Origin: Gillisia sp. CAL575
GTDB taxonomy: Bacteria > Bacteroidota > Bacteroidia > Flavobacteriales > Flavobacteriaceae
Direction of reading: 5' to 3'
DNA length: 64,000 nucleotides
Assembly (NCBI RefSeq): GCF_000403785.1
Contig: NZ_APHJ01000019.1
Coordinates: forward strand, 248,001 to 312,000
Below the pieces are notes generated by a model. The model was given only the letters and a program-made list of their open reading frames with translations. It was not told where the DNA came from and ran no database searches. Positions 29,052 to 43,494 of the stretch are shown here, piece by piece; position 1 is the stretch's first letter; each line of letters starts with the position of its first letter. A program made the translations under genes and the position numbers.

Positions 29052-29489
29052 ATGAAAAATATAATTAAAAAGATAAGCCTAGTACTTGTTTTAAGCATTG
29101 CCTTTGTGGGATGTAAAAATTCGCAAGAAGAAAATAAGGATCAAATGACACTTGAAGAAGCTCCTGCAACACAGGAGAAAAAAGAGATTTTAGCCTCAAA
29201 TTATCAGTTAGGGGATCATATTCCTAACGAATTGGTTTGTATGGTAAATAACGCCTATATGGGAACCCCACAAATCCAGGTTCCAGTAGGTGGGAAAACT
29301 TATTATGGTTGTTGCGATATGTGCGTAGGTAAATTGAATAATGATGAAAATGCCAGAATGGGGCAAGACCCATTGAGTGGTAAAATGATAGATAAATCTC
29401 AAGCTTATATAATTCTTTCTAATGAGGATGGAGCAGTTGCTTATTTTGAATCTGAGGATTCTTATAAGAAGTATAAAAATCAACTGTAA
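29052..29489 (+). CDS. lipoprotein with TRASH/YHS-like cysteine motif
   Basis: 145 residues; lipoprotein signal LVLSIAFVGCKNSQEEN. The mature part has ELVCMVNNAYMG followed by GKTYYGCCDMCVGKL, a C...CCxxC arrangement resembling the treble-clef of TRASH/YHS metal domains, in which a first cysteine precedes a YYGCC-type turn. Such domains bind copper or other soft metals. Two more methionines lie close by (ARMGQDPLSGKM). It stands between DUF2911 and the first HMA-AraC regulator. Copper binding at the outer membrane is the likely role; the family name is tentative. Confidence 0.75.
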   Translation: MKNIIKKISLVLVLSIAFVGCKNSQEENKDQMTLEEAPATQEKKEILASNYQLGDHIPNELVCMVNNAYMGTPQIQVPVGGKTYYGCCDMCVGKLNNDENARMGQDPLSGKMIDKSQAYIILSNEDGAVAYFESEDSYKKYKNQL

Positions 29490-29542: not shown

Positions 29543-30157
29543 ATGACTAAAGAATTCTTCATCAAAAATATGGTTTGCGATCGATGCATCAAGGTGGTAA
29601 GAAATGAATTGACTGCTGAAGGCATGCATGTTTTGGAGGTTTTTTTAGGAAGGGTAATAATAGAATCGGAAGATGAGGTTTTAGATAAGCAGAAATTGAA
29701 CAAGGTTTTGGATGCAAATGGGTTTTCACTAATAGGCAGTCCCGATGCAGTAATTTCTGAAGCGGTTAAAATTGAATTGATCACACTATTAAATAAGGTA
29801 CCACTTAATATTGGAGGAAAACTCTCAGACTTGCTTTCAGCAAAATTGAATTCTGACTACTCTAAAATTAGCAAGATTTTTTCGATTACTGAAAAGATTA
29901 CCATTGAGAAGTATTTTATAAAGTTAAAGATTGAGAAAGTAAAGGAATTAATCCAATCTCAGGAACATAACTTTACAGAGATAAGTCAGTTGTTGGATTA
30001 TAATAATATGAATTATTTATCCCGTCAATTTAAAAGTGAAACAGGTATGAGTTTAACGGAATACAAGGGTTTAAATGAAGATTTTAGGAATTCTTTAGAC
30101 CAAATTGTAAAAAATATTCCTAAAATGTTAACAACAAGAGTCCTAGCTATACTATAA
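29543..30157 (+). CDS. AraC-type regulator with N-terminal HMA-like CxxC domain (copy 1)
   Basis: 204 residues. Residues 1-70 resemble a heavy-metal-associated (HMA) fold: FFIKNMVCDRCIKVVRNEL has the metal site CxxC at Cys12 and Cys15, followed by the beta-alpha-beta pattern of Atx1-like domains. Residues about 80-175 form an AraC/XylS DNA-binding region with both helix-turn-helices; the second contains FTEISQLLDYNNMNYLSRQF and the closing GMSLTEYKG. I infer a cytoplasmic regulator that senses Cu(I) by the HMA-like domain and controls island genes. A paralogue with the same layout lies at 38634. It is 53 bases past the lipoprotein gene and 27 before a DUF3347 gene that has its own promoter match. 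Confidence 0.82.
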   Translation: MTKEFFIKNMVCDRCIKVVRNELTAEGMHVLEVFLGRVIIESEDEVLDKQKLNKVLDANGFSLIGSPDAVISEAVKIELITLLNKVPLNIGGKLSDLLSAKLNSDYSKISKIFSITEKITIEKYFIKLKIEKVKELIQSQEHNFTEISQLLDYNNMNYLSRQFKSETGMSLTEYKGLNEDFRNSLDQIVKNIPKMLTTRVLAIL

Positions 30158-30162
30158 TTTTG
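30155..30162 (+). promoter_or_regulatory. candidate -7 element for the DUF3347 lipoprotein gene
   Basis: TAATTTTG followed by C, an exact TAnnTTTG match, starts at the stop codon of the regulator and ends 22 bases before the next ATG. No clear -33 element, which could suit an activator-dependent promoter. Confidence 0.4.
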
Positions 30163-30184
30163 CAGTCAACCAAAAACTAATCAA

Positions 30185-30733
30185 ATGAAAACCAAAATTT
30201 TAAGTCTCAGTATGGTCTCTTTAATCGCTATTGGTTTTACATCTTGTGGTGAAGATGTGAAAAAGCAGACTGTGGAAATTAATACTCCGAAAGAAATAAA
30301 AAAATCGGAAAAAAAGACAGCAGATGTGGCTGATCAAGATTTTATTGATGGAATGACAGGAAAAGTTTGGCATAACTATCTGGAAATTAAAATGGCACTT
30401 ACCAATGCTGATGCTGGTACTGTTAAAGATGTTGCAGGTGAAATGGCTGAAGCCTTTTCAGAGGAACGTGCAGAAATGAAATCTTTAGCAAAGGAAATGG
30501 CAGTTACAGATGATATTGAAAAGCAGCGCGCATTATTCGCTCAATTTACTGATAAGGCAGGACCTATGTTTGAAGATGCTTTATCTGGGGGAACTATTTA
30601 TAAAAAGTTCTGCCCAATGGCTTTTAATAATAAGGGAGCATATTGGTATGCAGATGTAGAAGGGATCTCTAACCCTTATTTTGGATCTAAAATGCCTAAT
30701 TGTGGGTCAATTAGCAAAACCATCAAAAAATAA
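30185..30733 (+). CDS. DUF3347 lipoprotein (copy A)
   Basis: 182 residues. Lipoprotein signal ends IAIGFTSCGEDV. The mature part is helical and ends with the metal-site-like block seen four times in this window: KFCPMAFNNKGAYWYAD, then ISNPYFGSKMPNCG. Cys, Met and a second Cys at fixed spacing suggest a soft-metal site. The domain is known as DUF3347 and is also the C-terminus of the adaptor at 26531. Likely a periplasm-facing copper binder; no enzymatic role is visible. It is the first gene after regulator copy 1. Confidence 0.83.
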   Translation: MKTKILSLSMVSLIAIGFTSCGEDVKKQTVEINTPKEIKKSEKKTADVADQDFIDGMTGKVWHNYLEIKMALTNADAGTVKDVAGEMAEAFSEERAEMKSLAKEMAVTDDIEKQRALFAQFTDKAGPMFEDALSGGTIYKKFCPMAFNNKGAYWYADVEGISNPYFGSKMPNCGSISKTIKK

Positions 30734-30766
30734 AATCATCTTGTACTAACTATAAAATCAGAAAAA

Positions 30767-31258
30767 ATGAATTCAGAAGAAAAAAATCATAAGGAAATGA
30801 GTGGAAATTACGGAAAGTTTTTCTTGATGCTTGGTTTATCATTTGTTGCCATGTATATCACAATGTACTTGAACACCTATGAGTGGGACCATGTCTATTT
30901 TAGTCTTACAAGATTTTATATGAGTAGTATGGGTATTGCTGCCATGGCTGTAATTATGTTATCTCTCATGCTAAATATGTATAAAAACAAGAAAAAGAAC
31001 ATGGCAATTTTTGTCGGAAGCTTTTTACTATTTGTTAGTGCGTTAGGACTTGTAAGAGCACAGGCCCCAATTATTGGGGATGTGCTTTGGATGAAAGCCA
31101 TGATTCCCCATCACTCCATTGCCATTTTAGTAAGTGAGCGGGCAGATATACAAGACCCAGAGGTTAAAAAACTAGCTGAGGAAATTATTGAAGCTCAAGC
31201 TAGGGAAATAGCTCAAATGAAAAAGATGCTATATAGATTAGAAAATGCTGAGAAATAA
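30767..31258 (+). CDS. DUF305 membrane protein
   Basis: 163 residues. Three membrane helices (about 13-31, 44-66 and 73-95) are followed by a C-terminal helical region with KAMIPHHSIAILVSERADI and IIEAQAREIAQMKKMLYRL, the DUF305 signature including the conserved HH pair. DUF305 proteins often accompany copper resistance genes and are proposed to bind metal in the envelope, with the His pair as candidate ligands. This version has more membrane helices than typical secreted DUF305 proteins. It ends 5 bases before a strong terminator. Confidence 0.85.
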   Translation: MNSEEKNHKEMSGNYGKFFLMLGLSFVAMYITMYLNTYEWDHVYFSLTRFYMSSMGIAAMAVIMLSLMLNMYKNKKKNMAIFVGSFLLFVSALGLVRAQAPIIGDVLWMKAMIPHHSIAILVSERADIQDPEVKKLAEEIIEAQAREIAQMKKMLYRLENAEK

Positions 31259-31263
31259 TAAGG

Positions 31264-31297
31264 AAAATGCCCAAATCTATAATTTGGGCATTTTTTT
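31264..31297 (+). terminator. intrinsic terminator after DUF305 gene
   Basis: A 12-bp perfect stem (31265-31276 with 31282-31293), 5-base loop, then a run of Ts. It separates the cusA-to-DUF305 block from the multicopper oxidase block. Confidence 0.88.
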
Positions 31298-31366
31298 AAC
31301 TCACAGAATACCATAGAAAAATAATGAGGTCAATTTGATCTCAGCTATTGATTGAATAAAGAAATT

Positions 31367-33964
31367 ATGAAAAAGAAATATTATTTAAATTTTATAGTTC
31401 TGCTTTTTGTAGGCGTGCTGGGTTTTTCTCAAAATCCAGAAGCTAGAGAAGGGAATCCTGATAATTTGCCAGAGCACGAGTACACTTTGACCCTTAAAGA
31501 GGAAATGGTGAATAAGGCAGGTAAAGATGTAATGGGGATGACGGTTAATGGAGGCATTCCAGGACCTATTCTCAATTTTAAAGAAGGAGAATATGCTGTT
31601 ATTTACGTAAAAAATGATATGAGTGTAGAGACTTCTATTCACTGGCATGGAATGATCTTGCCTAATTTCTTTGATGGAGTGCCCTATTTAACAACCCCGC
31701 CTATAGAACCTGGACATACTTTTAAATATGAATTTCCTATAAACCAATCTGGTACCTATTGGTATCATTCTCATACAATGTTACAAGAACAAAGTGGTGT
31801 ATTTGGATCAATTGTAATTCAACCTAAGGAAAAAACATTGGATTATGATAAAGAGTTAGTATTAATGCTTTCAGACTGGACCAATGAGAAGCCTAAGAAT
31901 GTTCTTAGAAATCTTAAAAGAGGGAATGAGTGGTATAGCATGAAAAAGGGAACTTCTACGCCTTTAAACCAAGTAATTGCTCGTGGTGCCTTAGGTGCCC
32001 AAGTTGATTTTTGGAGACAAAGAATGGAAGGAGCAGATATCGCTGATGTGTATTACCCAGCTTTTTTAATTAATGGGGAAGAGAAAGTCGAGTATCCTGA
32101 ATTTAAAGCGGGGGAAAAAGTACGATTAAGAATTATAGATGGTTCTGCCTCTACTTCTTTTTGGATGACATTTGGTGGTGAAACCCCAACTTTAATCTCT
32201 GCAGATGGATTAGATGTAGTTCCAGTTAAGAAAAATAAAACTTTTATTGGGGTCGCAGAAACTTACGATTTTATAGTGGAGATCCCTCAAGATGGGAAAA
32301 TTGAATTCAGAATTACAGCACAAGATGGATCTGGAACAGCTTCATCCTTTTTAGGATCCGGGAAAATTTTAGAAGCATTAGATGTTCCTAGGCCAGATAA
32401 AATTGCGATGATGCAAAAAATGGCAAAGATGAAAATGAAAATGGGCGCTCCTGCATTAAAGGCTAATCCTGGGAAAGATGAGCGATATGAGATGAAAGAG
32501 AAATACGGCATGCAGATGGACGGTATGCAAATGGACGGTATGCAGATGGATGGCATGAATCATTCTAAAGAGTTTATGAACAAAATGAACGATGTGAAAC
32601 CAGCTCTTCAACATAAAAAACCGAAAGACACCGTTCAGCATAATACAAAACATGTAGAACTGCCAAGTATTTCTAAGCCCATGGATGATATGGATCATAC
32701 CATGATGAGGAAAGATACTATGAATATGGATCACTCTAAAATGGAAATGAAGAAAGGTACCATGTTGATGGACCACTCCAAAATGGATCACACTAATATG
32801 GAGATGAAGAAGGATACCATGATGATGGATCATTCTAAGATGGAAATGAAGAAGGATACCATGATGATGGACCATTCCAAAATGGATATGGAAGATTCAT
32901 CAAAAATGGATATGAGTAACGATAGGAAAAAGGGCGGTATGCAAGGAATGGAGATGTTTTCAGAATATAATTATGATTATTTGAAATCACCTGAAAAAAC
33001 CACGTACGATAAAGATTTTCCTGTAAATGAGATCCTATTAAATCTTACAGGGAACATGAACAGATATATCTGGAGTATGAATGGAGTGCCACTTTCAGAA
33101 ACCGATAAGATTAAAATTAAAGGTGGAGAGGTTACTAGAATTACTTTGAACAACTTGACTATGATGCATCATCCAATGCACTTGCATGGGCATTTCTTTA
33201 GAGTAATTAATGAAAACGGAGAATACTCACCACTAAAACATACGGTAAATGTGCCTCCAATGAAGGAGATCACTATAGAATTTTATGGAGATGAATATGG
33301 AGATTGGTTCTTTCATTGTCATATCCTATATCACATGATGGGAGGTATGGCAAGAGTAATTAGCTATGATACCCCTAGAGATGAGCGTTTAAAAGAGCAT
33401 CCTGTTTCAAAATTAGTGGACGAAACAGATATGTGGTATTCATGGGGAATAGTAGATGCCGCTTCTCATATGACAGAATTAAATTTGGTAACTTCTAATA
33501 TTCGAAATCAATTTAATGTAACCGCAGAATATGGTTGGAATAAAAATTTGGAAGCTGAAGTAAGTTATGAGCGTTACTTATTTGACTATTTACGGGTTTT
33601 TGGTGGGGTGAATATAGAAAATGAAATGGAAGATAGTCTAGAGGAGCTAAATACAACTGCAATAGCCGGAATTAGATATTTAACACCTTACCTATTTAAT
33701 TTAGATGTTAGAATTGATAGTGAACTACGTCCGCAAATAAGTTTAAGTAGAGAAATAATGATATTTCCAAGAACGGCCATTTTTGGAGTATATGAATATC
33801 AAGCAGATTTTGGTTGGGTAAATGATTTACCTGCCGGTGATAATTTTGAAAAAGAAGTGACTTGGAGCGCTGGGATGGAATATTTCTTATCTAGAAATTT
33901 CTCTTTAATGGGAAGTTATGATAATAGGTTTGGTGCCGGTGGAGGACTATCAATAAGATTTTAA
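31367..33964 (+). CDS. multicopper oxidase (CopA-like) with Met/His repeats and C-terminal barrel-like domain
   Basis: 865 residues from the ATG at 31367, which gives a clean signal peptide; a TTG five codons upstream is possible. Three cupredoxin domains: HWHG at 92-95 and YHSH near 130 in the first, HPMHLHGH (602-609) and FHCHILYH (649-656) in the last, with type-1 ligands Cys651, His656 and Met661. Between domains 2 and 3 (about 380-510) lies a Met/His/Asp-rich insert made of tandem repeats. After Met661 about 185 residues resemble the outer-membrane CopB/PcoB type, with alternating strands and a final aromatic in GGGLSIRF. It would oxidise Cu(I) to Cu(II) outside the cytoplasm; the tail may anchor it to the outer membrane. 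Confidence 0.88.
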   Translation: MKKKYYLNFIVLLFVGVLGFSQNPEAREGNPDNLPEHEYTLTLKEEMVNKAGKDVMGMTVNGGIPGPILNFKEGEYAVIYVKNDMSVETSIHWHGMILPNFFDGVPYLTTPPIEPGHTFKYEFPINQSGTYWYHSHTMLQEQSGVFGSIVIQPKEKTLDYDKELVLMLSDWTNEKPKNVLRNLKRGNEWYSMKKGTSTPLNQVIARGALGAQVDFWRQRMEGADIADVYYPAFLINGEEKVEYPEFKAGEKVRLRIIDGSASTSFWMTFGGETPTLISADGLDVVPVKKNKTFIGVAETYDFIVEIPQDGKIEFRITAQDGSGTASSFLGSGKILEALDVPRPDKIAMMQKMAKMKMKMGAPALKANPGKDERYEMKEKYGMQMDGMQMDGMQMDGMNHSKEFMNKMNDVKPALQHKKPKDTVQHNTKHVELPSISKPMDDMDHTMMRKDTMNMDHSKMEMKKGTMLMDHSKMDHTNMEMKKDTMMMDHSKMEMKKDTMMMDHSKMDMEDSSKMDMSNDRKKGGMQGMEMFSEYNYDYLKSPEKTTYDKDFPVNEILLNLTGNMNRYIWSMNGVPLSETDKIKIKGGEVTRITLNNLTMMHHPMHLHGHFFRVINENGEYSPLKHTVNVPPMKEITIEFYGDEYGDWFFHCHILYHMMGGMARVISYDTPRDERLKEHPVSKLVDETDMWYSWGIVDAASHMTELNLVTSNIRNQFNVTAEYGWNKNLEAEVSYERYLFDYLRVFGGVNIENEMEDSLEELNTTAIAGIRYLTPYLFNLDVRIDSELRPQISLSREIMIFPRTAIFGVYEYQADFGWVNDLPAGDNFEKEVTWSAGMEYFLSRNFSLMGSYDNRFGAGGGLSIRF
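32510..32554 (+). repeat. three tandem 15-base units encoding MQMDG
   Basis: ATGCAGATGGACGGT occurs three times with single-base differences, followed by another ATG, inside the oxidase gene. Each unit encodes Met-Gln-Met-Asp-Gly. Confidence 0.85.
32714..32890 (+). repeat. four tandem 36-57-base units encoding Met/His/Lys-rich blocks
   Basis: Units at 32714-32755, 32756-32812, 32813-32854 and 32855-32890 each encode a variant of DTMMMDHSKMEMKK. Two units have the 42-base length, one carries a 15-base insert and the last is short. Near identity of the third and fourth starts suggests recent duplication. Confidence 0.82.
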
Positions 33965-33985
33965 TTTAATTACAAATAAAAAAAC

Positions 33986-34378
33986 ATGAACATGAATTAT
34001 TATTTTAATAAAACAGTAAAAGGAAATTTTGAAGATATAATAGATAAAGTTTCCAAAGAATTAGAGAAAGAAGGATTCGGTGTTTTAACCGATATAGATC
34101 TTAAGGCAACTTTTAAAAAGAAGCTCGATGTAGATTTTCAGAATTACAGAATTTTGGGGGCATGTAATGCGCCTTATGCTCATAAAGCATTAGCTGCAGA
34201 AGATAAGGTAGGAACTATGCTGCCATGTAATGTGATTGTTCAGCAACTCGATGACAATTCCATTGAAATTGCAGCAGTTAATCCTATAGCTTCGATGCAA
34301 GCCATTAACAATTCAGAATTAAAGGAAATAGCTGATGAAATTTCAGAAAAATTAAAAAAGGTTATCAATAATATTTAA
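33986..34378 (+). CDS. DUF302 domain protein
   Basis: 130 residues without a signal peptide. The DUF302 domain has KELEKEGFGVLTDIDLKATF and NYRILGACNAPYAHKALAAE followed by GTMLPCNVIVQQL. The two cysteines (in LGACN and LPCN) are regular features. DUF302 proteins are widespread, often near sulfur or metal genes, and their reaction is not established. It follows the oxidase by 21 bases and precedes a DUF3347 lipoprotein by 10, so it is in their operon. A cytoplasmic soft-metal or thiol role is a guess from context. Confidence 0.87.
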   Translation: MNMNYYFNKTVKGNFEDIIDKVSKELEKEGFGVLTDIDLKATFKKKLDVDFQNYRILGACNAPYAHKALAAEDKVGTMLPCNVIVQQLDDNSIEIAAVNPIASMQAINNSELKEIADEISEKLKKVINNI

Positions 34379-34388
34379 AATAAACAGG

Positions 34389-35006
34389 ATGAAAAATATA
34401 AAATCAATACTAAGCGTAATGCTTATCACAATCCTAACTTTCACAGTAACTTCATGTCGAGATACCAAGAAAGAGGATGATAATGGGATGGATCATGACG
34501 ATATGGAGATGGAACATGATGATATGGATATGAATGACTCCTCAATGAATTCAGCCGAAAATAAGGGAATGACTCAAGACAAATCGGCATCAGATGCTAT
34601 TGTTACAAACTATTTAGAAATAAAAAATGCCTTGGTTGCAGATAATACCGAAGCTGCTGCATCTTCAGGAGGAAAACTAGTAAGTGTTTTTGAAGCATTT
34701 GAGGTTTCTAATTATTCAGAAGCAGAACAAAAAGAACTTAAGGAGATTATAGAAAACGCTAAGGAGCAAGCAGAACATATTGCAGATAGCCCAGTGGACC
34801 ACCAAAGAGAGCATTTTGAAATTTTAAGTAAAGACGTGGTAGATCTTATTGCAATTACTGGAACGAATAAAACTTTGTATCAAGATTTTTGCCCTATGTA
34901 TAATGACGGGAAAGGTGCTATTTGGTTAAGTGAAATCAAAGAGATTAAAAATCCTTTCTATGGAAGCAAAATGCTTACTTGTGGAACTATGCAAAAAGAG
35001 ATCTAA
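34389..35006 (+). CDS. DUF3347 lipoprotein with Asp/His/Met-rich linker (copy B)
   Basis: 205 residues. Lipoprotein signal LTFTVTSCRDTKK is followed by an acidic, His/Met-rich stretch (MDHDDMEMEHDDMDMNDS), a likely metal-binding linker. The rest is the DUF3347 domain, ending DFCPMYNDGKGAIWLSE, then KNPFYGSKMLTCG. The final block is closest in wording to that of the adaptor at 26531. It ends directly before the GTG start of the next gene with no gap. Likely a copper-binding outer-membrane lipoprotein. Confidence 0.84.
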   Translation: MKNIKSILSVMLITILTFTVTSCRDTKKEDDNGMDHDDMEMEHDDMDMNDSSMNSAENKGMTQDKSASDAIVTNYLEIKNALVADNTEAAASSGGKLVSVFEAFEVSNYSEAEQKELKEIIENAKEQAEHIADSPVDHQREHFEILSKDVVDLIAITGTNKTLYQDFCPMYNDGKGAIWLSEIKEIKNPFYGSKMLTCGTMQKEI

Positions 35007-35462
35007 GTGATCAAAATCTTAAAAGTAATAGCCACCATTGCTTTGACTGCGCTCATCGGAATTCAATTTATTCCAACTTCGCGTAATCAAAGTGATGTTG
35101 TACCTGTTACCGATTTTATTAATAATTATAATCCGCCAAAAGAAGTAGCCAGTATTTTGCGAACTTCTTGTTACGATTGTCATAGTAACAATACAAATTA
35201 TCCTTGGTATAACAAGATCCAACCTGTAGCTTGGTATCTAGAAGATCACGTAAGCCACGGAAAAGAAGAATTCAACTTTAGTGAATTTGGAGACTATTCA
35301 GATAGACGTAAAAAGAGTAAACTAAAATCTTTATTAAGGCAAGTAGAACAAGATGAAATGCCATTAGATCCTTACACTTTAATTCATAGTGATGCGAAGA
35401 TTTCGGAATCTGAAAAAGAATTGTTACTTGGATGGGTGAATAAAGTACTTGAAAGTATTTAG
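35007..35462 (+). CDS. haem-binding domain protein, CxxCH (copy 1)
   Basis: 151 residues, GTG start immediately after the stop of the preceding gene, fixed by homology with the ATG-started copy at 35785. An N-terminal helix (VIATIALTALIGIQFIPTS) anchors it, followed by a single c-type haem motif CYDCHSNNTNYPWYNKIQP. This is the haem-bd family (PF14376-like) common in Bacteroidota. The haem would sit in the periplasm and could pass electrons to or from copper enzymes. Conserved MPLDPY near the C-terminus may hold the axial methionine. Confidence 0.85.
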   Translation: MIKILKVIATIALTALIGIQFIPTSRNQSDVVPVTDFINNYNPPKEVASILRTSCYDCHSNNTNYPWYNKIQPVAWYLEDHVSHGKEEFNFSEFGDYSDRRKKSKLKSLLRQVEQDEMPLDPYTLIHSDAKISESEKELLLGWVNKVLESI

Positions 35463-35784
35463 AATACAGGATTACTAAAGTCCTTAAGGGGAAGTAAATA
35501 GCTTATTGTTTAATTAGTTAGTTAATTGTAAATTTTCTTTTCATTTAAGGGCTTTTTATTTAATTGAATGCATTTTTTAATTGCATTATACGAAAATGTA
35601 TTTCTAGTAATTACACAAAATTGTTTTGAACATTTTAGTAGTATAGATAATATAAAAGATGAAGTAAATGCCAATATTTTAATTTAAGATTTCAAATTGA
35701 TGAGTGAAAATGCTTAATTATCGCAGTTTTTAATAGGTAAATTATTAAGTTTGAAGACCATCAATTAATCTAATTTAATAAAAA
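35463..35784. other. 322-base AT-rich gap between haem protein copies
   Basis: No open frame of note. A weak inverted repeat around 35563-35585 (AATGCA with TGCATT) is visible. I found no exact TAnnTTTG element at a suitable distance from the next start. Confidence 0.4.
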
Positions 35785-36246
35785 ATGAAAATTTTAAAAA
35801 TTCTGGCCATAGTTGCCCTAATAGCATTAATAGTAATTCAATTTTTTCCTAAAAAATATAATCAGTCTGAAACAATTCCTGCTTCAGATTTTATTGCGTC
35901 ATATAATCCGCCAAAGGAAGTTGAATCTATATTACGGGCTTCTTGTTATAATTGCCATAGCAACAATACTGAATATCCTTGGTACAACAAGATTCAGCCA
36001 GTAAATTGGTATTTGGCAGACCATGTAGATGAAGGTAAAAGTGAACTTAATTTTAGCGATTTTGGTAACTACTCTCAAAAGAGAAAAGTCCATAAACTTG
36101 AAGAAGCTATAAAAGAGGTGAAAAATGATAAGATGCCTTTAGAGGAATATGTCTGGTTGCACCAAGATGCAGGTTTATCTGATGTGGAAAAGAAAACGCT
36201 AATGGATTGGTTAGGGACATTGGAGGCCGTTGATCAAATAAATTAA
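35785..36246 (+). CDS. haem-binding domain protein, CxxCH (copy 2)
   Basis: 153 residues. Same layout as the gene at 35007: N-terminal helix (ILAIVALIALIVIQFFPKK), haem motif CYNCHSNNTEYPWYNKIQP and a C-terminal helical part with KMPLEEYVWLH. More than half of the residues match copy 1 by eye, so this is a tandem duplication. The two are split by 322 bases, whereas copy 1 is fused to the DUF3347 operon. Probably an inner-membrane-anchored periplasmic monohaem protein; redox partner unknown. Confidence 0.85.
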   Translation: MKILKILAIVALIALIVIQFFPKKYNQSETIPASDFIASYNPPKEVESILRASCYNCHSNNTEYPWYNKIQPVNWYLADHVDEGKSELNFSDFGNYSQKRKVHKLEEAIKEVKNDKMPLEEYVWLHQDAGLSDVEKKTLMDWLGTLEAVDQIN

Positions 36247-36282
36247 ACTATTTAAATATACAGGTTGAGCCAGTTTTAAAAT

Positions 36283-36441
36283 TCTCATAATCTTAGAAAA
36301 GGAAGGTTACGGAATCAAGGTTTTAAAGAGATTGTCAATCGGGTGGGTCATTTAACAAGAGAATTGAAACATCGAGAAAAAGAACAGCATTTTAAATTTG
36401 GCACTTATTTCGTGACAGGAAATGGCTTAAAAATTCTGTAA
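36283..36441 (+). pseudogene. possible decayed coding fragment
   Basis: In this 217-base gap one frame stays open for about 52 codons without a usable start (containing GHLTRELKHREKEQHFKF), while an overlapping frame reads LEKEGYGIKVLK just before it. A single frameshift would join the two. The first part vaguely resembles the KELEKEGFGVLTD segment of the DUF302 gene nearby. No family could be assigned, and chance is possible. Confidence 0.25.
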
Positions 36442-36463
36442 TTATTAATTAAATTATAATAAT

Positions 36464-37033
36464 ATGAAAAATGTATTTCGATTATCAATGGTAGCACTTC
36501 TAAGTTTAATTACTATTAGCTGTGGAACTACGCAAACGGCAGCTGAGGCATTAGTAGAAAATGACTTTAGGAATGATGTTTACAAGGAAATAGTAAATGA
36601 TGAAGCTAAATTTATGGAATTTTTGAACGTAGCTCATGCTAGCAAGGAGGCAGATTCTTGGTTAATGAAAGACCATATGCAAATGATGGAAAATGGGAAA
36701 ATGATGGAGGTTATGAAAGCGAATCCAGAGATGCAGGAAAAAATGAAGAAAATGATGCAGGAAAAAATGGAGAAGGATCCTGAAATGCAAAAGAAGATGA
36801 TGGAAAAAATGAAATCTAAAATGATGGAGGATCCAACCATGAAAGAAGCAATGATGGAAAATATGCATGCTGAAATGAAGGCTAATCCAGAAATGGCTGA
36901 AAAGATGATGGAGAAAATGATCAACTTCTTTCATGAAAACCCAGAAATGATGGAGAAAATGCAAGCTAAAATGAAAGCCCATCAAGCTGAAATGGAAAAA
37001 CAACAAAAAGCCGATAAAAAGAAAAAACAGTAA
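36464..37033 (+). CDS. methionine-rich helical lipoprotein
   Basis: 189 residues. The lipoprotein signal ends LLSLITISCGTTQ. From about residue 60 the protein is a long, charged helix with repeated MMEKM, NPEMQEKM and DPEMQKKMMEKM units; by hand count about 33 methionines follow the signal, against few cysteines and histidines. Met-rich clusters of MxxM and MM type bind Cu(I) in CopA, CusB and PcoE-type proteins. It would be an outer-membrane copper sink facing the periplasm. No enzymatic domain is present. Its 3' side is closed by an 18-bp hairpin. Confidence 0.75.
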   Translation: MKNVFRLSMVALLSLITISCGTTQTAAEALVENDFRNDVYKEIVNDEAKFMEFLNVAHASKEADSWLMKDHMQMMENGKMMEVMKANPEMQEKMKKMMQEKMEKDPEMQKKMMEKMKSKMMEDPTMKEAMMENMHAEMKANPEMAEKMMEKMINFFHENPEMMEKMQAKMKAHQAEMEKQQKADKKKKQ

Positions 37034-37089
37034 TTAAAAGTCAAACTCCTAAAGAGCGAACTTGATTTTAAGTTACTATGAGCATTACT

Positions 37090-37134
37090 ATAAATGAAGT
37101 ATTCTGGGATGTTTTGCCAGAATACTTCATTTAT
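37090..37134. terminator. perfect 18-bp hairpin after the Met-rich gene
   Basis: Arms 37090-37107 and 37117-37134 are perfectly complementary with a 9-base loop. There is no long T-run (TATAAC follows), so it may stabilise the 3' end of the message rather than terminate on its own. Confidence 0.6.
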
Positions 37135-37235
37135 TATAACTAATTAATTCTGATAAAAAATAATTGGCATTTTACCAATTTCTTGCTTGTTCTATAATTC
37201 CAAGAATTAAAAGCATAAATATTAAGTAGTATTTA

Positions 37236-37955
37236 ATGATTAACAGACACACAGCTAAAAAAATTAGAAAGACACACCGCTACCTGGGTTTATTTATTGG
37301 AATTCAGTTTCTAATGTGGACCATTAGTGGACTCTATTTTAGTTGGACAGATTTAGATGAAATTCATGGAGATCAGTTTCTTAGGGCAAAAGTAGAAAAG
37401 GCAACTTTTAGTGATCTATTGAGTCCATCTGAACTCAAGCTAAATTCAAAAATAGCATCGTTAGAATTAATACAGATTGGTGAAAAACCATTTTATTGGA
37501 TAAACAATACGATACTTTTTGACGCCACGGATGGAACAAAAATTGAAGGAATATCGCAGAAGGATGCTTTGGCAGTTGCAAGTCAGCATGTTTTAAACGA
37601 GCTTGAAGTTCTGAATATCGAGAAAATTAGCAATACAGATAATCACCATGAATATCGTGGAAAGCCTTTGCCTGCATATGTGATTTCTTATAATTCTTCT
37701 GATAACATAAAAGCATATGTTGCCGTAGAAAATGGTAAATTTGAAAGTATTAGACATCGAGATTGGCGATGGTTCGATTTTTTATGGATGACTCATACTA
37801 TGGACTATGACGGTCGGGATGATTTTAATAATATAATTCTGAGAGCCTTCTCCTTATTAGGTTTATTAACTGTTTTGAGCGGGTTTACCCTGTGGTATAC
37901 TTCATCACCGAGTATTAGAAAGATTTTAAATAGAAAAAAAAAGAAAAATAAATGA
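37236..37955 (+). CDS. PepSY-type membrane protein
   Basis: 239 residues. An N-terminal helix after basic residues (HRYLGLFIGIQFLMWTISG) and a C-terminal helix (LLGLLTVLSGFTLWYTSS) flank a periplasmic region with two PepSY-like segments, the second containing AYVAVENGKFESIRHRDWRW. This is the layout of the short PepSY-TM proteins found in iron and copper uptake or reduction loci. It overlaps the next gene by 4 bases (ATGA), so it is coupled to DUF3347 copy C. Role inferred: electron transfer or support of metal reduction at the membrane; not proven. Confidence 0.82.
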   Translation: MINRHTAKKIRKTHRYLGLFIGIQFLMWTISGLYFSWTDLDEIHGDQFLRAKVEKATFSDLLSPSELKLNSKIASLELIQIGEKPFYWINNTILFDATDGTKIEGISQKDALAVASQHVLNELEVLNIEKISNTDNHHEYRGKPLPAYVISYNSSDNIKAYVAVENGKFESIRHRDWRWFDFLWMTHTMDYDGRDDFNNIILRAFSLLGLLTVLSGFTLWYTSSPSIRKILNRKKKKNK

Positions 37956-38533
37956 AAAAGCAAATTAGAAATGTATTCATGATTGCTGCATTAGTAGCAA
38001 GTTTTGGATTTTATTCTTGTGGAGAGAACAAGAATAAAAATGAAGAAACAACCACAGTAATGGATGAAGAAATGAATTCTGAAGAGAAAACAGATTCTAC
38101 AGATATAATAAATGTCGAGGAAGTGATAAATGTTCAGTTTAAAGAAACTACCACTCAATCTGTTTTCAAACATTATATCGGGATTAAATCTGCATTAGTG
38201 GCATCAAATAATGCAGAAGCACAGCAGCACGCAACTATGTTACTGGAAAGTTTAAAAGAAATTGAGGCTGAGCAGACCTTATTAAATGCTACTATGCAAT
38301 TAGTTGAAGCAACAGACATAAATAAGCAAAGAGAAGCTTTCTCAAAAATCACAAAAGAGATGGAAGGGGTTATTACCGGCGCTATTTCTTCTGGAGAGAT
38401 TTATAAGCAGTTTTGTCCAATGGCTTTTGAAGGAAAAGGGGACTATTGGTACTCTACATCTTCAGAAATAAGAAACCCGTATTTTGGTGATAAAATGCTA
38501 AAATGTGGTAGGGTAGAAGAAGTGATAAATTAA
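37952..38533 (+). CDS. DUF3347 lipoprotein (copy C)
   Basis: 193 residues. Lipoprotein signal ASFGFYSCGENKNK, a Glu/Asp/Met-containing linker, then the DUF3347 domain ending QFCPMAFEGKGDYWYST, then RNPYFGDKMLKCG. It starts within the stop of the PepSY gene. It is most like copy A at 30185 in the CPMAF segment. It is followed by a nested hairpin and the second HMA-AraC gene, mirroring copy A beside regulator copy 1. Confidence 0.84.
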   Translation: MKKQIRNVFMIAALVASFGFYSCGENKNKNEETTTVMDEEMNSEEKTDSTDIINVEEVINVQFKETTTQSVFKHYIGIKSALVASNNAEAQQHATMLLESLKEIEAEQTLLNATMQLVEATDINKQREAFSKITKEMEGVITGAISSGEIYKQFCPMAFEGKGDYWYSTSSEIRNPYFGDKMLKCGRVEEVIN

Positions 38534-38549
38534 TAGTATTCACAGAAGT

Positions 38550-38611
38550 CAAAGCCTATCACTTCAGCATATTCAATTTATGAAGTTGAATAGATAGGCT
38601 TTGCTTTTTTT
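38550..38611 (+). terminator. nested hairpin with T-run just before regulator copy 2
   Basis: Outer stem CAAAGCCTATC (38550-38560) pairs with 38593-38603 and is followed by CTTTTTTT. Inside, two shorter stems (38561-38566 with 38581-38586; 38570-38576 with 38586-38592) share position 38586 and so cannot both form fully. It lies 22 bases before the inferred start of the regulator. Confidence 0.75.
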
Positions 38612-38633
38612 GGGAATTCAATATTTCAATAAT

Positions 38634-39200
38634 TTGAATAATAAGGAGTTACATATTAAAAATATGGTTTGTGATCGTTGTATAATCTCAGTACGAGAGA
38701 TATTACAGCGCAATAATATTGTGTTCTTAAATATTTCATTGGGAACTATCGAACTTCAAAGTGATATGGATCCTGATCAGATAGAGGAGCTTCAAAATGA
38801 ATTTAAACAAGTGGGTTTTGAGATACTTTCAGAAAAAAATGAGCGTATCGTTAAGCAGATTAAGGCGATCATTTTAAAAGAAATTTTTGATGCCGACTCT
38901 AATTCACATCAGAACTTGTCTGTTACATTAAAAGAAAACCTCCATTTTGATTATAGCCATTTGAGTTCTATATTTTCTAAAACTGAAGGGAAAAGTATTC
39001 AAACTTATCAAAATGAACTCAAGATAGAGCGCATAAAAGAATTACTGGAATATGATGAACTCAGTATTTCAGAAATTGCAGATAAATTAGGATTTGGAAG
39101 TGCCGCCTATCTTTCTACTCAATTCAAAAAGATTACAGGAACTACTCCTTCTAAATATAAGATTTCTAAAAAAAACCGAAATACACTAGATACTTTTTAA
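38634..39200 (+). CDS. AraC-type regulator with N-terminal HMA-like CxxC domain (copy 2)
   Basis: 188 residues from TTG at 38634, chosen because it gives NNKELHIKNMVCDRC, matching TKEFFIKNMVCDRC of copy 1; earlier codons lie inside the terminator hairpin. The HMA-like domain has Cys13 and Cys16. The C-terminal half is a canonical AraC region: LKIERIKELLEYDELSISEI, KLGFGSAAYLSTQFKKITG and TTPSKYK. A Cu(I)-sensing transcription factor is inferred. The second helix-turn-helix is closer to the AraC consensus than in copy 1. It ends 30 bases before the ion channel gene and may be co-transcribed with it. Confidence 0.8.
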   Translation: MNNKELHIKNMVCDRCIISVREILQRNNIVFLNISLGTIELQSDMDPDQIEELQNEFKQVGFEILSEKNERIVKQIKAIILKEIFDADSNSHQNLSVTLKENLHFDYSHLSSIFSKTEGKSIQTYQNELKIERIKELLEYDELSISEIADKLGFGSAAYLSTQFKKITGTTPSKYKISKKNRNTLDTF

Positions 39201-39230
39201 TTCAAATTTTTTAAAAAATCATTTTGAGTG

Positions 39231-40226
39231 ATGGCTTATCTTCTAATTGTAATTGGAACGATCATATATGTAAGTATTGTATTAGATATTCTAAAAACAA
39301 CTCTTTCAATGCAGGGTGGTGGATGGCTAACAAGCAATTTTTCTCATTTGTTTTGGAAACTAATGCTAAAGTTGTCCGGTAGAAACGGGAAATCTAAATT
39401 ACTTGCTCGGGCGGGATTCTACCTTTTAATTCTAATTATTTTAATTTGGGTGTCTTCTCTTGCGCTCAGTTTGTTTTTATTATTACAATCTGATATAGAT
39501 TCTGTTGTAAACTCTGCTAAAATACCCGCATCAGCTTTAGAAAAATTATATTATTCCGGGTATATACTTTCCACTTTAGGAATTGGAGATTTCACACCCT
39601 CAAACAATCTGTGGCGTATTATTACCGATCTATACTCATTTACGGGGCTTATTTTAATAACGATGTCCGTCACCTATTTTATTCCAGTTTTATCTGCTAT
39701 AATTAAACAAAGAAAACTTGGTATAAATTTGAGTAGCCTGGGAAATAGCCCCCAAGAAATTATCTTGAATGCTTGGAATGGGATAGACTATGATTTTTTT
39801 AAATTACAGCTTCTAACTCTGTCTGACGCACTCTTGGAGCACAATCAAAACCATAGAGCATATCCAGTAATTCACTTTTTTCATAATAACGATAAAGAAC
39901 ATTCAGTAGTATTACAAATTGCACGTTTACATGAGGCTATTTGTATACTGGAGAAGTGTTTGAGTCCGGAGTGTTCTATACCTAAGCAGGAAATTTCTTC
40001 TATAAAAACTGCCCTTAATAATTATATAAATGTGGTTCGAGAAGTATCTAATATCAATTTTATTAATAGTTCGCCAATTACGCCAGATTTAAATATGCTG
40101 AAAGAAAAAAATATGCTAAGGTCCAACTTAAATGGTTTCGATTTTTCTGAGACTGTACAGGAAGATAGACAGTTCTTTTTAACTTTAGTAGTTAATGACG
40201 GGTGGGAATGGAAAGATGTATTTTAA
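39231..40226 (+). CDS. two-helix ion channel protein (potassium-channel-like pore)
   Basis: 331 residues from the ATG at 39231 (a GTG lies one codon upstream). Helices at about 4-20, 63-90 and 130-152 surround a pore loop with ILSTLGIGDFTPSN; LGIGD stands in for the TVGYGD selectivity filter of K+ channels. The last 170 residues are cytoplasmic and helical with no recognised RCK domain. Ion channel family (PF07885-like) members of this sort are present in many bacteria. Its place in a copper island, directly behind a metal-responsive regulator, is unusual. Ion selectivity cannot be stated with confidence given the altered filter. Confidence 0.78.
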   Translation: MAYLLIVIGTIIYVSIVLDILKTTLSMQGGGWLTSNFSHLFWKLMLKLSGRNGKSKLLARAGFYLLILIILIWVSSLALSLFLLLQSDIDSVVNSAKIPASALEKLYYSGYILSTLGIGDFTPSNNLWRIITDLYSFTGLILITMSVTYFIPVLSAIIKQRKLGINLSSLGNSPQEIILNAWNGIDYDFFKLQLLTLSDALLEHNQNHRAYPVIHFFHNNDKEHSVVLQIARLHEAICILEKCLSPECSIPKQEISSIKTALNNYINVVREVSNINFINSSPITPDLNMLKEKNMLRSNLNGFDFSETVQEDRQFFLTLVVNDGWEWKDVF

Positions 40227-40364
40227 GAATGATTGGCAATAAATACATATAGGGTTTATAAAGTTATTCTAAAGTTCACATAGTAAGTCTTCTAGGGCTT
40301 AGTAAAAGCCATATTATCGTAAAATCTTACCATAATTTTAAAAGTCTTTATTGTTTCTATTAGG

Positions 40365-40372
40365 TAACTTTG
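40365..40372 (+). promoter_or_regulatory. candidate -7 element for the four-helix copper protein
   Basis: TAACTTTG, an exact TAnnTTTG match, ends 22 bases before the ATG at 40395. No -33 TTG at standard spacing. Confidence 0.45.
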
Positions 40373-40394
40373 GGTGAACCTTAAAACCAAAGTT

Positions 40395-40715
40395 ATGAGA
40401 AATGAGAAAATGATACATGCGCTTGGGAACTGTATAAACAAGTGCAACTACTGCGGAGATGCTTGTTTAGATGAGGAAAATGTAAAGATGATGGTTACTT
40501 GCATCCGAACAGACAAAGTTTGCGCAGAAGTATGCAGTACTTTAAATCAATTATTAGCCACGGATTATAAAGATGTAGATGATCTTATAAAATATTGCAT
40601 TAAGGTATGTAATGCATGTGCAGACGAGTGTGAAAAACATGAGCATGATCACTGTAAGGAATGTGCACAAGCTTGTAGAGAATGTGCACGTGTATGCGAA
40701 GCGCATTTGGCTTAA
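40395..40715 (+). CDS. cysteine-rich four-helix bundle copper-binding protein (DUF326/Csp-like)
   Basis: 106 residues from the ATG at 40395. No signal peptide, so cytosolic. Sixteen cysteines by hand count lie in helical CxxxC spacing (NCINKCNYCGDACLDE, YCIKVCNACADECEKHEHDH, CKECAQACRECARVCEAH). This is the pattern of Csp copper storage proteins, in which cysteines line the inside of a four-helix bundle and bind many Cu(I) ions; cytosolic Csp3 is the closest type. A HEHDH segment adds histidines. It sits before copA with its own promoter match, consistent with storing Cu(I) before export. Confidence 0.88.
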   Translation: MRNEKMIHALGNCINKCNYCGDACLDEENVKMMVTCIRTDKVCAEVCSTLNQLLATDYKDVDDLIKYCIKVCNACADECEKHEHDHCKECAQACRECARVCEAHLA

Positions 40716-40776: not shown

Positions 40777-43494
40777 ATGAAACATAGCTATACTATCTCT
40801 GGAATGACTTGTAATGGGTGCAGAGCTCATGTGGAAAAAATCTTACAAAAAGTTGAAGGTGTAATAGATGCATCGGTAAATCTTGAAAAAGCTGAAGCAG
40901 AAATTGAAATGGATTCTCATATTAAATTGAGTCAATTTCAAAAAGCTTTAAAAGAAGACGGGGGAGGTTATGAGATACATGAACCTGGAAAAACTATGAC
41001 TCATACATATAATATTACGGGAATGACTTGTAATGGCTGTAGAACACATGTAGAGAAAGTTTTAAATGCTGTAGAGGGAGTTTCTAAAGCAACGGTAAAT
41101 TTAGAAAACAAGGAAGCCATTATAGAAATGGAATCTTATATTAAGATTCAGAAATTTCAGCAGGAATTAGAGAAAGAAGGAGGAACTTATCAAATATATA
41201 GTCATGGAAAAGCGCCAAAATCAGAAGAAAACGGATCTTCCAAAGCTTTAGAAAATGGGAACGGAACCTTTTATTGTCCTATGCACTGTGAAGGTGATAA
41301 AACTTATGATAAACATGGGGACTGCCCTGTGTGTGGGATGGACCTTGTGGAAGAAATGAGTTTAAAATCTTCTGCCACCCAGTATACATGTCCAATGCAT
41401 CCGGAAATCGTTGAAGATGAGCCAGGAGATTGCCCAATTTGTGGGATGGATCTTGTTCCTATGGAAGCAGATGTTTCTGCAGAAGCAAAAACGTATCAAA
41501 AGCTTCTCAAAAAATTTAAGATTGCGGTACTGTTTACAGTACCAATCTTTCTGATCGCGATGTCTGAAATGATTCCTGGGAACCCGCTTTATGACTGGCT
41601 AGATATGAAAACCTGGAACTGGATCCAGTTGGGTCTTTCTATTCCTGTGGTATTCTATGCAACCTGGATGTTCTTTGAAAGGGCATATAGATCTATAATC
41701 ACATGGAACCTTAATATGTTCACCTTGATAGGAATAGGTGCGGGTGTGGCTTGGGTGTTTAGTGTTTTTGGATTACTATTTCCAGATCTTTTTCCAGATC
41801 AGTTTAAAACAGAAATGGGTACTGTTCATGTTTACTTTGAAGCGGCTACAGTTATTTTAACACTAGTTCTTTTGGGTCAGCTTTTAGAAGCAAGAGCGCA
41901 TAGTAGAACAAATGGAGCCATAAAAGAACTTTTAAAGCTTGCTCCTAATAAGGCCTATAAGATTGTTGATGGAGTAGAACAAGAAGTGCCTACAGATCAA
42001 ATTATGGTGGGCGATCTTTTACGTGTAAAACCGGGTGATAAGATCCCAGTAGACGGTACGATAGAAAAAGGACAAAGTAGTTTAGATGAGTCTATGATTA
42101 CCGGCGAGCCAATTCCAGTAGATAAAATTGTGGGTGATAAAGTGAGTTCAGGGACTATCAATGGGAACCAAAGCTTTACCATGATAGCCGAGAAAGTTGG
42201 AAATGAAACTTTACTGGCTCAAATTATAAAGATGGTGAATGATGCTAGTAGATCTCAAGCTCCAATTCAAAAACTAGCCGATAAGATCTCCGGTTATTTT
42301 GTTCCAATTGTAGTATTAATTTCTGTAATAACTTTTGTTATCTGGGCTATTTATGGGCCAGAACCAGTTTATGCTTATGCAATGATTAACGCGATAGCAG
42401 TTTTGATAATAGCATGCCCTTGTGCTTTAGGATTGGCTACACCAATGTCTGTAATGGTAGGTGTTGGGAAAGGAGCTCAAAATGGGGTGTTAATAAAAAA
42501 TGCGGAGGCTTTGGAGCAAATGAACAAGATAGAAGTACTTATAATAGATAAAACGGGAACTATTACTGAAGGGAAACCTTCTGTAGAAAAAGTGGTCGCC
42601 TTATCTTCTACTTATTCTGAAGATGAGGTACTCAAGTATATAAGTTCTGTAAATGCATTGAGCGAGCATCCACTTGCTCAAGCCACAGTAAATTATTCTA
42701 AGGAGAAAAAGCTAAACTTAGTGGAAGCTTCCAATTTCAATTCGGTCACTGGAAAGGGAGTGACTGGAGAAATAGAAGGAAAGAAGGTAGCAATTGGGAA
42801 TGAAAAATTAATGATAGACTCTAAAGCTAAAATCACTCCAGAATTTAAGAGTCAGGTTGAAAGCGAGCAGGAGCAAGGAAAAACTGTTTCTTATGTTGCT
42901 GTAAGTAATGAAATTGTGGGATATATAACCATTACAGATCCTATTAAGAAAACTAGCGCTCAAGCTATTAAGGAGTTAATGGATGATGGTATAAAAGTAA
43001 TAATGCTTACTGGAGATAATGAAAAAACAGCAAAAGCAGTTGCAGATCAGTTACATCTTTCCGGATATAAAGCAGGGATGCTTCCAGAAGATAAATTGAA
43101 TGAAGTAAAACGTCTTCAAGAAGAAGGCAAGTTAGTGGCTATGGCAGGTGATGGAATTAATGATGCTCCTGCTCTAGCACAATCTAATGTGGGTATCGCA
43201 ATGGGTACAGGAACAGATGTAGCTATTGAAAGCGCAAAGATTACCTTAGTAAAAGGTGATTTACAAGGTGTTGTAAAGGCTAAAAATTTAAGTGATAAAG
43301 TAATGACAAATATTAAACAGAATTTGTTTTTTGCTCTTATCTATAACACGGTTGGAGTGCCAATAGCTGCGGGAGTTCTTTACCCAGTATTTGGTTTATT
43401 ATTATCTCCAATGATCGCTGCCTTAGCAATGAGTTTTAGCTCGGTTTCTGTAATTGGTAATGCATTAAGATTGAAAAATGTTAAGCTAGATTGA
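40777..43494 (+). CDS. copA: Cu(I)-translocating P1B-type ATPase
   Basis: 905 residues. Two N-terminal HMA domains ([13 protein letters not shown] at 9-21 and [13 protein letters not shown] at about 82-94), then two heavy-metal-binding modules (FYCPMHCEG...[11 protein letters not shown], and [20 protein letters not shown]). The ATPase core has the metal-transport motif CPC at 547-549 in [13 protein letters not shown], phosphorylation site DKTGT at 591, SEHPLAQA and GDGINDAP. It pumps Cu(I) from cytosol to periplasm. The tandem of two HMA and two binding modules makes it longer than the usual 750-830. A strong bidirectional terminator follows. Confidence 0.97.

Follow-up and report, generated by a model that had tools for sequence, protein, structure and literature searches.

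HMA-AraC fusion proteins as candidate copper sensors of Bacteroidota, with a conserved DNA site past their genes

Two regulators with an HMA-like domain fused to an AraC-type domain

Two genes in a copper island of Gillisia sp. CAL575 encode proteins that join an HMA-like domain to an AraC-type DNA-binding domain, and are considered here as candidate copper sensors. They lie in the window, a stretch of 64,000 nucleotides (contig NZ_APHJ01000019.1, positions 248,001 to 312,000) that was analysed as a whole. The first, Reg1 (29543..30157, + strand), begins with ATG and encodes 204 aa; the second, Reg2 (38634..39200, + strand), begins with TTG and encodes 188 aa. Support for the TTG start of Reg2 comes from six relatives of the genus that start at the same codon, which is TTG in three, GTG in one and ATG in two; an earlier start, at 38601, is possible. 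The two proteins are 35% identical (E 2e-29).

Both N-terminal domains share the string IKNMVCDRC, and with it the M-x-C-x-x-C metal site. In Reg1 the HMA-like domain, placed by AlphaFold2 and Foldseek, spans residues 1-64 (29543..29734, + strand), with its CxxC, CDRC, at residues 12-15 (29576-29587, + strand); the AraC-type DNA-binding domain occupies residues 98-175 (29834..30067, + strand). The corresponding parts of Reg2 are residues 1-66 (38634..38831, + strand; AlphaFold2 and a sub-threshold Pfam HMA match), CDRC at residues 13-16 (38670-38681, + strand) and residues 103-176 (38940..39161, + strand). The double helix-turn-helix of AraC-type proteins is recognised in both by the HTH_18 model (38.0 bits for Reg1 and 62.3 bits for Reg2, cut-off 33.6) and by fold matches in the PDB. 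No match to the cupin model AraC_binding was found in either protein at E<=1; their N-terminal domain is HMA-like instead.

The HMA half escapes family models. Against a Pfam cut-off of 24.8 bits for HMA (PF00403), Reg2 scored 17.7 bits and the N-terminal piece of Reg1 alone 13.4 bits, and a PF00403 search of the organism's own genome returned the two ATPase domains and a single further protein, but not Reg1 or Reg2. Family annotation thus overlooks the sensor half.

Structure prediction recovered it. AlphaFold2 models, built from the window proteins and proteins of related loci, had a mean pLDDT (predicted local distance difference test) of 88.1 for Reg1 and 86.7 for Reg2, and both showed the strand-helix-strand-strand-helix order of the ferredoxin-like HMA fold (in Reg1, strand 2-8, helix 13-25, strands 29-34 and 37-41, helix 45-58). 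Foldseek matched Reg1 to CopZ (6ff2 and 2qif, E 0.015-0.021), HAH1, Atx1 and ATP7B (overall E 0.015-0.047), with target-normalised template-modelling (TM) scores of 0.74 for CopZ 6ff2, 0.73-0.75 for 2qif, 0.75 for Atx1 2xmv and 0.66 for HAH1. Reg2 matched HMA7 (3dxs, TM score 0.60), TTHA1718, 2l3m, ATP7B and other HMA domains (E 0.02-0.085). The matches to isolated HMA domains carried probabilities of 0.98-1.00, yet their E-values were just 0.015-0.085. Many AraC-type domains were also among the matches of both models, and no HMA-AraC protein was recognisable by title in the best 50 per search. The coordinates, the HTH_18 matches and the models agree with the earlier note, which had read an HMA-like domain with NMVCDRC and an AraC-type C-terminal domain in both genes and had proposed an HMA fold in the first 70 or so residues as a test; we considered, and rejected, a chance CxxC within an ordinary AraC protein.

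Relatives, metal-site cysteines and copper genes

We also rejected the idea that the feature is confined to this island. Relatives, with or without the CxxC, were found in 15 of 16 genomes of the genus (E 1e-12), 126 of 249 of the family (E 1e-15) and 194 of 392 of the phylum (E 1e-12). A contig scan gave at least 80 loci, all under Bacteroidota names, and 30 of 72,556 plasmid records carry a relative, all in Bacteroidota genera. The closest named relative among the matches listed is from Gillisia mitskevichiae (83%). Genes resembling Reg1 and Reg2 lie 3-10 kb apart in five further genomes of the genus. Tandem pairs occur in three other loci, where the gene directly downstream of the first regulator encodes another one, with KGMVCxRC (L056:10642-11193, L095:10662-11195, L099:10657-11214).

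For comparison we assembled 219 full-length members from 199 of 201 loci, the window included. The sample is biased: 80 loci (L050-129) are the best matches picked by similarity and motif, about 100 (L186-265 and L286-305) come from more than 150 matches listed, 20 genus regions were added, and one Gillisia genome is counted twice (L050 and L266). The metal-site position reads CxxC in 180 members, SxxC in 21, NxxC in 11 and otherwise in 7; the Arg of CxRC is kept in 189 of 219. Among the 39 non-CxxC rows, L212 (with a gap at the motif) and L250:10988 (a long spurious frame) are doubtful, and both were excluded from the tree. When profiles were compared with the HMA domains of CopA, the CxxC N-terminal domains matched with 94.8% probability (E 5.4e-8), the SxxC clade with 45.2% and a third clade with 5.8%.

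Presence of the CxxC goes with copper genes, defined here as genes for a P-type ATPase, a small HMA protein, CusA, CusB, a DUF3347 protein or a multicopper oxidase, and identified among mechanically called genes by phmmer with the window proteins and by sequence signatures. A copper gene lay within 5 kb of 151 of the 180 CxxC members and of none of the 39 others; in the phylum sample alone the counts were 55/70 and 0/38. The earlier note had made conservation of the CxxC among relatives a test of its reading, and the cysteines were present in 180 of 219, including all 151 that have a copper gene no more than 5 kb away. The gene calls miss some small HMA proteins (eight 60-79-aa neighbours went unlabelled, and the six listed were all HMA-like), and stand-alone DUF3347 proteins often received the CusB label. 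Members lacking a CxxC cysteine adjoin Dps-like, CsbD-like and YtxH-like genes, identities that we presume from sequence, and response regulators.

Outside the island the regulators usually adjoin a gene for a Cu-type P-type ATPase or one for a small HMA protein, which bears on the metal that is sensed. The CxxC sites of HMA domains can bind a range of soft metals, and the signal could be one other than Cu(I), such as Zn, Cd, Hg or Ag. By the signatures that we take to mark Cu-type (P1B-1) and Zn-type pumps, however, the nearest P-type ATPase was Cu-type in 107 of 120 cases and Zn-type in none, the other 13 being unclassified, and CusB, multicopper oxidase and DUF326 proteins are further neighbours. 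We therefore regard another soft metal as very improbable and take the CxxC branch to respond, most likely, to Cu(I).

A separate draw of genomes gave partial agreement. A DNA pattern for the motif was present in 49 of 168 genomes of the class, and a high-scoring copper ATPase in 40 of these 49 as against 25 of the 119 genomes without the pattern. Among the matches listed, the pattern lay within 5 kb of 25/79 high-scoring versus 1/71 lower-scoring ATPases, the two groups being split at about E 1e-165, a value chosen in this analysis.

The lineages without the CxxC have settings of their own. A second clade, in which KFDINTIC replaces KNMVCxRC, often stands beside a small response regulator (7 kb into each of L207, L213, L226 and L231) and would represent the HMA-AraC scaffold without its metal site. 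A third paralogue in the CAL575 genome (L006:1468-2037; G000:C20:105029-105595) has SLRC in place of CDRC, with no copper gene in the 3.5 kb covered. It adjoins an ice-binding-like gene, presumably of the DUF3494 type; in L281, from a relative within the genus, both genes recur, and a strong copy of the conserved site described below lies between them. Elsewhere, CopZ-like proteins of 65-70 aa that directly follow a regulator (L234, L241, L242, L252) resemble its N-terminal domain, and such stand-alone proteins are a possible origin of the fused HMA domain.

A conserved site in the gap past the regulator genes

In alignments from the genus, the core CCAWAATTTTAAMA recurred downstream of Reg1-type and Reg2-type genes, and in both classes of promoter a -7-like element followed 35 nt after it. 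Expectation maximisation (EM) on 95 gaps from other lineages arrived independently at a related motif, which reads TCCAAAATTnTGTAACA in the sense of transcription. Its score was 313.7, compared with 68.8-72.9 in five dinucleotide shuffles (run with 40 starts, not 80), and a site was present in 74 of the 95 gaps, on one strand in 72. An earlier run that included 20 coding bases was discarded because its signal was the conserved protein tail; the search was rerun without them. The half-site consensus is AAATnnTRTAA, in direct repeat: of 81 sites, 67% had a second half-site on the upstream side at a spacing of exactly 21 bp, compared with about 1% at other offsets.

The site is concentrated where the regulators end. 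In two-fold cross-validation, split by locus (score >=10), it was found in 54 of the 98 gaps that follow a CxxC regulator, compared with 26 of 606 other gaps, and in 1/41 gaps before CxxC regulators, 1/13 after other members and 9/63 before other copper genes; reverse-strand and shuffled controls gave 2% and 3%. Where copA directly follows the regulator the site was present in 45 of 54 gaps, and where a small HMA gene does so in 13 of 14, these gaps having also been used for training. A Pontibacter actiniarum plasmid that had no part in the training has its best site 33 bp past the CxxC regulator. A scan with this general model after the genes (score >=9; shuffles 0; the CxxC gaps partly in training) found a site past 80 of 151 CxxC members with copper genes and 5 of 29 without. 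Besides the window, three of 23 genus loci have sites of the general type (24.2-25.7), following a CxxC regulator in L280, an SxxC one in L281 and a broken family reading frame in L282.

This distribution also bears on which protein binds. The site might belong to another factor, the HMA-AraC proteins merely travelling with copper genes, and its occurrence in 9/63 promoters of other copper genes would fit that. Its concentration right after the regulator, on a single strand, argues for the regulator instead, as does a direct-repeat layout of the kind expected of an AraC-type dimer; and because the site also follows some paralogues that lack a copper context, it appears tied to the protein family, not to copper genes. 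Ownership by another factor is highly unlikely in our view, and position links the site to the adjacent protein as its probable binder.

The site stands at a fixed distance from a promoter element. Sigma-ABfr promoters have TTTG at -33 and TAnnTTTG at -7, as described in PMC10620806. Elements of the -7 type occur in the window and, at a fixed offset, in the relatives: TAnnTTTG occurs 30 times between -60 and +120 around 85 sites, and 23 of these copies lie at +37 from the site start. None of the 26 promoters with both a site and a -7 element had TTTG at -33, partly by construction, as the site model spans those bases. The conserved site in the gap just past CxxC regulators, and its fixed distance from the -7 element, are newly found here.

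Such a position could serve repression as well as activation. The proximal half-site overlaps the -33 region, where an apo-protein could block RNA polymerase until released by Cu(I). With TTTG at -33 in 0/26 cases, however, the promoters look activator-dependent (again, partly by construction), and AraC-type proteins at sites overlapping -33 are mostly activators. Copper-relieved repression is accordingly quite unlikely, and we favour activation by the bound protein.

The window holds two candidate operators of the genus form. Operator A (40314..40346, + strand) has a distal half-site, TTATCGTAA (40314-40322), and a proximal core, CCATAATTTTAAAAG (from 40330), with a -7 element, TAACTTTG (40365..40372, + strand), 35 nt past the core. 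It precedes the genes for a Cys-rich DUF326 protein (40374..40715, + strand; Pfam 60.0 bits), the first past the operator, and CopA (40777..43494, + strand), a P1B-type ATPase with two N-terminal HMA domains (PF00403; TIGR01511 580.4 bits, cut-off 397). Its genus-model score of 23.0, at 40329-40346, is the best of the 64-kb window; operator A itself was absent from the training of that model, which included sites of close relatives. It is also the sole zero-mismatch match of core and -7 element in the 3.64-Mb genome. An ion-channel-like gene (39228-40226) separates Reg2 from this site.

Operator B (30102..30136, + strand) lies inside the 3' end of Reg1, with half-sites AAATTGTAA (30102-30110) and AAATGTTAA (30123-30131) 21 bp apart and a -7-like element, TAATTTTG (30155..30162, + strand), 35 nt past the core. 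It ranks second in the window under the genus model, yet was itself in the training set. Past it come the genes for DUF3347 lipoprotein copy A (30185..30733, + strand; Pfam 34.2 bits) and a DUF305 protein (30767..31258, + strand; Pfam 46.1 bits). The genome pattern search gave three matches with two mismatches, one of them operator B, and 19 matches with up to three mismatches against 14 in the reversed control, so that the pattern alone singles out just operator A. Both window sites are of a diverged form, with 35, not 36, nt from CCA to the -7 element, and the genus model at score 14 with a -7 element recognised only 1 of 155 other CxxC loci; the genus form of the site is thus not general. 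The earlier note had the regulators act on promoters of the island. Support extends to two such promoters, at operators A and B, but not to the cus operon or the rest of the island promoters, since no further window match under the genus model (score >=9) has a -7 element at the right distance.

A gene at 31352..33964 (+ strand) encodes a protein with Met/His-rich repeats that, from sequence and without a family search, we take to be multicopper oxidase-like; its tandem repeats, of the MDHSKMEMKK type, lie at 32505-32944. DUF3347 lipoprotein copy C (37952..38533, + strand; Pfam 53.4 bits) stands upstream of Reg2. The earlier note had placed each regulator next to a DUF3347 lipoprotein gene; both neighbours are real (cut-off 25.5 bits), but the arrangement is local, other neighbours being usual elsewhere. 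A CusB-like adaptor at 26531-28279 combines an HMBD domain with a C-terminal DUF3347 domain, so the three stand-alone DUF3347 lipoproteins resemble detached CusB tails. Two lipoprotein-like reading frames have no Pfam match: one with cysteines (CCDMC; 29052-29489), which adjoins Reg1, and a Met-rich one of 189 aa (36464-37033), with counterparts in several islands of the genus. In 13 further loci, most of them from the genus, DUF326 comes directly after a regulator, within 260 bp.

A proposed copper switch and its place among known regulators

The CxxC relatives mostly stand beside copper pumps and often share a precisely placed downstream site, which makes them, probably, copper sensors. From domain make-up and site position, the CxxC HMA-AraC members would be one-component sensors and class-II AraC-type activators that bind the downstream 21-bp direct repeat, a reading to which we give a probability of roughly three in four. 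The HMA domain, resembling Atx1 and CopZ, would sense cytosolic Cu(I) through its M-x-C-x-R-C site. HMA chaperones pair around Cu(I), and the title of PDB entry 2qif names a metallochaperone that carries a tetranuclear Cu(I) cluster; the regulator may likewise dimerise by Cu(I)-bridged pairing of its HMA domains. The AraC-type domain would bind the two direct half-sites just past the regulator's own gene. As the proximal half-site occupies the position of the -33 box, the metal-loaded protein would replace the missing -33 contact and activate the promoter that starts at its own 3' end, switching on the copA, CopZ, DUF326 and DUF3347 genes downstream. The regulator is seldom preceded by the site (1/41, above) and so may be made at a basal level or together with upstream neighbours.

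Several observations weigh against this reading. The association of CxxC with copper genes is confounded by descent, with just 3-5 changes on the tree, and its Fisher values do not count independent events; an independent-pairs test had three pairs with equal copper context within each, and hence no power. Of the 180 CxxC members, 29 had no copper gene in range, some of them on short contigs. In the separate draw, and among the ATPases listed, only 24 of the 60 places with the pattern had a high-scoring one no more than 5 kb away, and 9 of the 49 genomes with the pattern had none. Nor do CxxC members alone carry the site: it follows 6 of 22 SxxC-type genes and 2 of 17 other members, and the site ahead of the ice-binding-like gene in L281 (25.7) is among the strongest. 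Upstream of the regulators, a motif search of 92 deduplicated regions returned A/T runs only. In the window, the half-sites of operator A are 19 bp apart, diverged from 21, and the general model ranks other places first, operators A and B being drawn from the genus footprint. Finally, plasmid pSLIN02 of Spirosoma linguale, outside the sample, is an exception to the CxxC rule: an AraC gene of family length (L314:9365-10287), cysteine-free in its first 45 residues, is followed after 26 bp by the best site (20.7) and then by a CopZ-like gene (KCGGC), and no site after the CxxC regulator of the plasmid was among the top five of the stretch. Our confidence is lowered by this member and by the sites after SxxC members. 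Taken together, the sites after SxxC and other members suggest that the site tracks the DNA-binding half of the protein, and the metal site the copper context.

The pSLIN02 member could also be accommodated if the HMA domain were a docking or dimerisation module that reports the status of CopZ or CopA by protein contact, copper genes being controlled without direct copper binding. HMA domains dock together in chaperone-ATPase pairs, a stand-alone chaperone often follows the regulator, and Pfam scores the HMA part weakly. It is not obvious, however, that docking by itself would call for both cysteines, and both are kept in all 151 members with a copper context; we judge it unlikely, and return to direct Cu(I) sensing.

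AraC/XylS regulators typically, though not universally, have an N-terminal cupin ligand domain, and AraC of E. coli activates from half-sites I1 and I2. Reg1 and Reg2 share with that family the double helix-turn-helix domain and candidate direct half-sites 21 bp apart, one over the -33/-35 region, but differ in a sensor that is HMA-like, without a cupin match, and in a site at the regulator's own 3' end. With CopZ, Atx1, HAH1 and the HMA domains of CopA they share the predicted beta-alpha-beta-beta-alpha fold and the M-x-C-x-x-C site; unlike those chaperones, they are fused to a DNA-binding domain, mostly carry the Arg of CxRC and fall below the Pfam cut-off.

The job proposed here, copper-dependent control of copA and cus genes, is that of CueR (MerR family), CsoR, CopY and CusRS, whose DNA-binding folds are not of the AraC type. 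No model of these regulators, CueR and CsoR included, was among the matches listed for Reg1 and Reg2 (for Reg2, the best 25 of 34 from NCBIfam). In 198 genomes of the phylum no CueR scored above 147.4 bits, a strict cut-off that 1 of 14 control genomes passed; sub-threshold matches occurred in 124 of the 198, the strongest being 137.6 bits outside the class and 75.9 inside, and the absence of CueR is by itself weak evidence. CsoR exceeded its cut-off in 61 of the 198 phylum genomes, 5 of these being among the 50 of the class; no genome search was made for CopY or CusRS.

A 2024 flavobacterium study, in the part available, lists CopA, CusB, a multicopper oxidase and a four-helix copper-binding protein among the copper genes of Bizionia argentinensis, a set like ours, with MerR and CopY-type proteins that lack a copper site and no CueR or CopY bearing one (PMC11213822). 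Its authors proposed ArsR-SmtB proteins for cytoplasmic copper regulation, and the term 'AraC' is absent from its main text (PMC11213822). By term search, 'copper' is absent from the available text of PMC3878776. Judged by titles and abstract openings, none of the papers listed in our searches of the open-access literature describes HMA-AraC copper regulators, most subscription journals being outside that scope.

The HMA-AraC family is widespread and, by the sequence comparisons above, has a conserved DNA site of its own; for its CxxC branch we infer Cu(I) as the ligand. In many Bacteroidia these proteins may be the principal cytosolic sensors of copper. A bolder proposal, which we hold tentatively and consider doubtful as a whole, would make them the default Cu(I) sensors of much of Bacteroidota, acting as a Cu(I)-bridged HMA dimer on the 21-bp repeat, with the cysteine-loss lineages, some still with the site, redeployed to other stress genes. 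If the sensor reading is true, these proteins would be a new class of metal sensor, in which the fold of a copper chaperone has been turned into a transcription switch. Their DNA site would then serve to predict copper regulons, and the relatives that have lost the cysteines would be natural controls.

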